Shown here piece after piece: positions 28,952 through 29,304 of a stretch of 33,567 bases of DNA. The DNA is from an uncultured Candidatus Melainabacteria bacterium (GTDB lineage: Bacteria > Cyanobacteriota > Vampirovibrionia > Gastranaerophilales > Gastranaerophilaceae), in the NCBI GenBank assembly GCA_949741915.1, contig CATJOM010000036.1, positions 1-33,567 of the forward strand, in the 5' to 3' direction. A model generated the notes under the pieces. The model had not been told where the DNA came from. It did no database searches and worked only from the letters and a program-made list of their open reading frames with translations. How positions within the stretch are numbered: position 1 is the first letter of the stretch; the number at the start of each line of letters is the position of its first letter. A program made the position numbers and the translations under genes.

Positions 28952-28980
28952 TTGACAAACCACATACTATAGTAAATAAT
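28952..28980 (+). promoter_or_regulatory. Consensus-like promoter reading into the tiny-peptide locus
   Basis: TTGACA at 28952-28957 is a perfect -35 box; 17 bases later AATAAT (28975-28980) matches the -10 consensus at five of six positions. The predicted start is about 28987, exactly at the left arm of the hairpin that ends the minus-strand peptide transcript. It would produce RNA antisense to that transcript. It could instead be a distant promoter of glgA. Confidence 0.6.
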
Positions 28981-29044
28981 AAAAATGTAGGGCGAAGCTC
29001 CTGAAAAGTAAAGTATACATCAAGAGCTTTTCTTCACACCCTAC
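28974..29044 (-). terminator. Terminator of the tiny-peptide transcript
   Basis: Read on the minus strand, GTAGGG (29044-29039) pairs with CCCTAC (28992-28987), and the inner AAGCTC/GAGCTT arms (29029-29024 with 29000-28995) extend the stem. ATTTTTATTATTT follows (28986-28974). The stem begins five bases after the peptide's stop codon. On the plus strand the same stem is followed by a weaker T-rich stretch. Confidence 0.7.
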
Positions 29045-29048
29045 GGTT

Positions 29049-29114
29049 TTACAATTTTGATGCTATTACTGCAATTGCAAAGGCCAGTAATAGCACTATT
29101 ATTTGCTTCACCAT
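29049..29114 (-). CDS. Tiny hydrophobic peptide, type I toxin-like
   Basis: A 21-residue ORF beginning MVKQIIVLLLAF and ending VIASKL: one membrane-length hydrophobic helix with a lysine near each end. The ribosome site is the best in the window, AAGGAGGTG at 29128-29120, six bases from ATG. A leader ORF of eight codons (start 29145) ends with a TGA inside that ribosome site. The transcript has its own terminator, and a plus-strand promoter faces it. These traits fit a type I toxin of the Hok/Fst/Ibs kind or another small membrane protein. There is no recognisable family name. Confidence 0.6.
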   Translation of the reverse strand: MVKQIIVLLLAFAIAVIASKL

Positions 29115-29304
29115 AGTTTCACCTCCTTCCATCCAATTTCTTCATAAATTGCGTGTGACAGAAGTTTGGCTTGCATAAAGCCCTACAGACTTATTCTGCA
29201 AGATTTGTTTCGATTTTTAAAATATATAATTTTCCTTAACATTCTATTTAAAACAAATTTTGCAAATGATAAGATAAATAAAACAGGATGGATAGAGGAA
29301 AATT

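Follow-up and report, generated by a model that had tools for sequence, protein, structure and literature searches.

Candidate type I toxin-antitoxin modules, dispersed through the Gastranaerophilaceae, with recognition words that co-vary between toxin mRNA and antisense RNA

Between ruvA and glgA of an uncultured Candidatus Melainabacteria bacterium (Gastranaerophilaceae; assembly GCA_949741915.1, contig CATJOM010000036.1, of which positions 1 to 33,567 form the window analysed here) lies a gap of 369 bp in which a short open reading frame (ORF) for a hydrophobic peptide, on the minus strand, faces a near-consensus promoter on the plus strand. Do the two form a gene pair, or is this an accident of sequence upstream of glgA? 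A sequence-only reading of the window had proposed a new type I toxin-antitoxin system with the layout of the par/Fst loci. Comparison with relatives leads us to consider it highly probable that the locus is one member of a type I toxin-antitoxin family that is scattered over the chromosomes of the Gastranaerophilaceae and would work in a par/Fst-like manner without being Fst. The evolution of the module, i.e. that of its conserved parts, clamp, hairpins, antisense promoter and loop-arm coupling, supports this reading; synthesis of both RNAs, repression of translation through their pairing, toxicity of the peptide and the step that releases it are inferred.

The elements of the locus are easily recognized (see the table below). 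The Shine-Dalgarno (SD) sequence GGAAGGAGGTG stands 5 bases from the ATG of the ORF at 29114-29049, and 29114 is the likely start since a further in-frame ATG, at 29132, shares sequence with the SD. The terminator of the peptide gene (GTAGGG...CCCTAC with a T-rich tail) is real, as had been claimed, though its long loop hid it from a simple scan. The plus-strand promoter, TTGACA-N17-AATAAT, scored 11/12 and was the best of six promoter-like sites in 2 kb; as the number of such sites was not above that of shuffled sequences, a lone match proves nothing, and the case rests on conservation, that is on the recurrence of the whole arrangement in relatives at other sites.

Sequence similar to the gap was present in several genomes of the family, at other sites. 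Nine copies, when compared, agreed in their parts and in the succession of these (5' GTAGGG(C), small hairpin, SD, ORF, CGTAGGG...CCCTAC terminator, facing promoter), and ORF, SD, terminator and facing promoter make up one module of ~235 bp. Because a tblastn-type search with the 21-aa peptide alone matched only two relatives, copies were collected with a sequence-only DNA profile of the module, antisense promoter included. At E ≤ 0.1, this profile found copies in every one of the 41 genera and in 158 of the family's 191 genomes, with E-values to 1e-45 and up to 11 copies per genome. In a sample of the order, matches at E ≤ 1e-4 were almost all within the family, with one good match in another family; in a sample of the phylum, all were within it, save a weak one. 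Named records that contain the terminator/antisense-promoter block were nearly all Candidatus Gastranaerophilales or Melainabacteria. Two matches fell in records named for other phyla, L066 (ONYB01000123, Brachyspira) and L083 (JAMPCZ010000016, Muribaculaceae), which are possibly misnamed or misbinned. No match was found in viral contigs (searched with two exact patterns) or in phage and plasmid collections, i.e. no sign of carriage at that sensitivity; nothing in Rfam exceeded the gathering score for the module, and no Pfam or NCBIfam entry matched the peptide, at a length so short that such searches have low power.

Where the copies reside bears directly on the simplest alternative, namely that the plus promoter is that of glgA, read as a single plus-strand transcript into this gene, and that the minus-strand ORF is due to chance. 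The score of the promoter, its strand and its position upstream of glgA would fit. The same promoter is however found, together with the rest of the module, at dozens of sites without glgA; it is followed, within the ORF, by a hairpin with a T-rich tail; and in one relative (G003) glgA directly adjoins ruvA, the module being absent. The doubt voiced in the sequence-only reading as to the owner of the promoter is thereby lifted, and we regard this alternative as virtually untenable. Of 85 copies, 79 were intergenic, at unrelated sites, and 40 of 81 had convergent flanking genes; the neighbours are ordinary genes.

The loop upstream of the SD contains a word of 5-10 nt that is found again in the left arm of the terminator at the 3' end, and the predicted antisense RNA therefore carries its complement. 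The word varies from copy to copy (TACTAAG, AGTGAAG, TACGAAG, CGTAG, CAGAG, TGGAG, TACGCAG and others), loop and arm changing together. The match between a loop and its own arm was 6.57 nt, versus 4.70 nt when the arms were dealt to other copies (0/10,000 permutations, z = 16); control pairings gave z values between -2.7 and 2.8. In a test on pairs of nearest relatives whose words differ, meant to limit the effect of relatedness, the own partner was favoured 39 times and disfavoured once, with 4 ties. Mismatches between loop and arm were mostly of a kind compatible with pairing: 7 distinct G/A against 1 A/G in the type A core, and 6 transitions against 0 in type B, a second module type described below. 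This G.U asymmetry, which is 13 versus 5 if flanking positions are included, is only suggestive.

The predicted mRNA (29186->28977) folds at -68.6 kcal/mol (z = -5.2 versus shuffles). Its two ends can form a clamp whose halves co-vary in the family (GTAGGGC/GCCCTAC, GTAGGGT/ACCCTAC, GCAGGGT/ACCCTGC; z 11.5). In folding predictions for 86 copies the clamp was present in 93%, the loop unpaired in 85% and the SD mostly paired in 78%. In 39 aligned class I copies, the clamp, the 5' hairpins and the ORF hairpin were paired in 90.4% of the cells, and double changes in paired cells numbered 57, against 17 in shuffles and 3-14 in slid structures (score 0.206 versus 0.113). The ORF hairpin was also stronger than in synonymous recodings that preserve the peptide (mean z ~-3.2).

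The gene statistics, obtained from 99 copies at ≥70 bits, indicate that the small ORF is genuine, as had been proposed for the one at hand. An ORF adjoins the SD in 97 copies and begins with ATG in 91 of these; over 63 nt, frame 0 is free of stops in 95 of the 97, versus 0 and 25 in the two remaining sense frames. One antisense frame is mostly open too (88/97), as a by-product of the palindromic nature of the ORF hairpin. The peptides have a median length of 24 aa (20-26 aa) and a mean hydropathy of +1.85. They fall into two unrelated classes borne by one chassis, MVDKIIMLLLAFSIAVIALKL-like and MTKEIIKTVITVIITVLKIIIIWL-like, and hydrophobicity is kept in both. Apparent ATA or GTG starts were seen in L024:1501-1736, L051:1501-1735, L115:372-604 and L132:1501-1733, possibly decayed or weak-start modules. 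A type A copy at L105:1501-1771 (G000 C119:13490-13760) is decayed: a premature stop and additional sequence interrupt its ORF.

As to the promoters, the antisense one agrees at 17-18 of 18 positions in 87 of 95 copies, a near-invariance that bears out its prediction here and that is partly circular, the profile containing the promoter. A sense promoter scoring at least 9/12 was found at the right place in 77% of 92 copies, against 12% of shuffles; that no strong minus-strand promoter had been found thus applies to the present copy and not to the family. On the antisense strand, a T-rich stretch follows the ORF hairpin, so that the codons of the ORF probably also encode the terminator of the antisense RNA. 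This RNA would start in the terminator of the toxin mRNA and most likely end at the hairpin inside the ORF, which replaces the terminator shared by both RNAs that had been assumed by analogy with par. Within the predicted antisense RNA, the recognition site is more often unpaired (0.61) than the remainder (0.36).

The mechanism that we propose is as follows. The minus strand would be transcribed into an mRNA of ~200 nt for a 21-residue hydrophobic peptide, which probably inserts in the cell membrane and, when over-made, would stop growth. Folding would leave this mRNA largely inactive from the outset, with its two ends held together by the clamp and with both SD and start codon base-paired. 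The strong facing promoter would direct synthesis of an antisense RNA of ~110 nt, from the mRNA terminator to the hairpin encoded by the codons of the ORF, with a bulge complementary to the loop just upstream of the SD. Pairing of loop and bulge would nucleate the duplex and block translation and, the short recognition sequence being particular to each copy, each antisense RNA would prefer its own mRNA.

Several observations weigh against this reading. The profile, by including the antisense promoter, inflates its apparent conservation, and the sense promoter of the copy under study (29193-29220) is weak (8/12). The ORF hairpin of that copy (29061-29095) stands out only moderately (z ~-1.5), 40 of 1000 synonymous recodings being as stable. 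When the 3' arm is removed, the predicted fold does not expose the SD; hok-like activation by simple 3' trimming, which we considered, thus receives no support. Identical recognition codes are not rarer within a genome (11%) than between genomes (7.6%), i.e. selection for differing codes within one genome was not seen. Lastly, the ratio of non-synonymous to synonymous polymorphism (pN/pS) does not separate coding from RNA constraint: it is below 1 (0.69, 0.61), but for class I the frame control fails (0.69 in frame versus 0.48 in frame +1). Being confounded by the RNA hairpin, this test was dropped, and the coding claim rests on SD, ATG and open frame. A purely non-coding element, a mobile structured RNA or a repeat in which the ORF is incidental, would fit the unclear frame control of pN/pS, the strong RNA constraint, the dispersion of the copies and the empty ruvA-glgA site of G003. 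Such an element would leave unexplained the 91 of 97 ORFs with SD and ATG, the openness of the one frame as opposed to the other two, and the hydrophobicity kept in two unrelated peptide classes, to which type B adds a third peptide; we hold it to be very improbable.

A coding module could still serve another end: a small membrane peptide, with a stress or regulatory function and no toxicity, might be under the same antisense-RNA control. The peptides do vary widely, to the point of forming two unrelated classes on one chassis, they have ordinary genes as neighbours, and their toxicity is putative. But multiple, sometimes tandem, copies encoding hydrophobic peptides, tightly silenced at the SD, the start codon and the 5' end together, are what one typically sees with known toxins, and silencing in so many layers would be hard to explain for a harmless product. 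We therefore judge a non-toxic role unlikely. The type I toxin-antitoxin-like module announced for this lineage is, on comparative evidence, strongly supported.

How does the proposed toxin-antitoxin family compare with known systems? In par/Fst (pAD1 RNA I/RNA II; SprA1/PepA1), the RNAs are convergent, direct repeats lie near the SD, a stem-loop hides the SD and the 5' end is hidden too; the repeats are poorly conserved between paralogues, to which the lack of cross-protection was attributed (PMC7472228). The modules described here resemble it in their convergent promoters, in direct repeats that would direct antisense pairing to the initiation region of the toxin mRNA, near the SD, in the variability of these repeats between copies, and in the SD-sequestering 5' stem-loop and 5'-end-hiding helix, both predicted here and showing compensatory changes. 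They differ in lineage, in their peptides (20-26 aa, without the PXXXG motif or the charged C-terminal tail of Fst), in the absence of a shared bidirectional terminator, the terminator-like hairpin for the antisense RNA being inside the ORF, and in the location of the repeat, which occupies the loop of a hairpin and a bulge of the antisense RNA. A 5'-3' clamp is a property of the toxin mRNAs of Hok/Sok and AapA/IsoA as well. These share with our predicted mRNA inertness at birth through folding, which has been described for hok (PMC7472228), whereas their peptides are not alike and predicted 3' trimming does not free the SD here. TxpA/RatA (and BsrG/SR4) of Bacillus likewise consist of convergent genes with overlapping 3' parts, but TxpA has 59 aa and RatA, which has no complementarity to the initiation region, acts mainly via RNase III decay (PMC4147584), while 5'-UTR complementarity is the most strongly coupled feature here. 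Ibs/Sib of E. coli shows the same multiplicity of copies per genome, very short hydrophobic peptides and an antisense RNA with recognition domains over the ORF; Sib covers the whole ORF and the ribosome-binding site (PMC4147584), whereas the antisense RNA predicted here would stop inside the ORF and reach the 5' UTR only through the repeat.

Also of the Cyanobacteriota, in a broad sense, is msoT1/msoA1 of Microcystis, reported in 2025 as the first cyanobacterial candidate, in which, like here, a cis antisense RNA covers the end of the ORF and the 3' UTR; according to that report, type I systems were previously known only from Proteobacteria, Firmicutes and Tenericutes (PMC12390103). MsoT1, as described there, has 63 aa and two predicted membrane helices, which sets it apart from peptides of 20-26 aa, and the accessible text gave no repeat code for msoT1/msoA1 (PMC12390103). 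A full-text literature search returned no paper linking type I systems to Gastranaerophilales, and of five papers naming both Melainabacteria and toxin-antitoxin none had a title or displayed abstract about such a system. What the copies appear to represent is thus a previously unnamed family of small membrane-peptide genes, widespread in Gastranaerophilales, every one of which seems to be silenced by a dedicated antisense RNA through a matching sequence private to it. The family would place type I systems in bulk among the gut-dwelling, uncultured relatives of the cyanobacteria. The variation that it shows in nature would amount to an evolutionary map of the bases by which an antisense RNA recognises its mRNA, and antisense specificity among paralogues is therefore directly testable by swaps of loops and arms.

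Table. Predicted features of the ruvA-glgA module (positions in the window) and type B modules of genome G000
Feature	Position	Strand	Remarks
Peptide ORF, 21 aa, MVKQIIVLLLAFAIAVIASKL with stop	29049..29114	minus	putative membrane toxin, class I
SD GGAAGGAGGTG	29120..29130	minus	predicted sequestration by upstream ACUUCU
5'-UTR hairpin CAATTT-ATGAAG-AAATTG	29134..29151	minus	the antisense RNA is proposed to target its loop
Recognition repeat, copy 1 (TGAAGAAA)	29137..29144	minus	in 5'-UTR loop
Recognition repeat, copy 2 (TGAAGAAA)	29029..29036	minus	in 3' arm; complement in predicted antisense-RNA bulge
Toxin-mRNA 5' end (GTAGGGC)	29180..29186	minus	one clamp half; predicted start ~29186
Clamp 3' half (GCCCTAC)	28987..28993	minus	also right arm of mRNA terminator
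Toxin-mRNA terminator hairpin (CGTAGGG...CCCTAC) and T-rich tail	28974..29045	minus	
Toxin promoter TTAAAA-N16-CAGAAT	29193..29220	minus	weak, 8/12; stronger in most relatives
Antisense-RNA promoter TTGACA-N17-AATAAT	28952..28980	plus	most conserved block of the family
Predicted antisense RNA, ~110-120 nt	28987..29105	plus	recognition bulge in 5' hairpin; 3' hairpin inside ORF
Hairpin TGCTATTACTG...CAGTAATAGCA inside ORF, then CTATTATTT	29061..29095	plus	proposed antisense-RNA terminator
Type B modules, MDNFNISLLLIF...-like peptide	G000: C126:44-298, C51:125-389, C19:21981-22239, C121:2309-2572, C123:24612-24846		clamp idea and variable word

The same genome contains five copies of the second module type, type B, which has another peptide, MDNFNISLLLIFLILYILKNGSYLNR, and a different 5' UTR. 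Over ten copies the type B scaffold is 81% identical, but the word that precedes CGGGTT varies and again changes in step with the 3' side (8.45 versus 4.78 nt, z = 12.9, 0/10,000). We lean, by a small measure, towards a lineage-wide superfamily in which one RNA chassis (clamp, SD hairpin, antisense promoter and recognition loop) would carry interchangeable peptide cargoes and private, co-evolving loop-bulge codes, giving about ten parallel and largely separate pairs per genome.

Further variants were met in passing. A third module type, with a MIFSITEKALIIILLIILALKFIK-like peptide and a hairpin-coded ORF, occurs in L104, L106 and L107 (G000 C103, C45 and C22), the repeat being unclear in some of them. 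The module at L059:364-532 has yet another peptide, MTKQQVLVIIKAVLWMLGQLLLVISNNL, with the 8-nt repeat GCTATGTA in both 5' UTR and 3' arm. Finally, L051 (G102:C28:18419-20606) is a tandem array of about seven modules, i.e. five of type B, an ordinary type A and a type A-like one with the cargo MDLLIYLFLDYLIQKYKKKVPDLELLELFIKS; among those examined, the recognition words differ.
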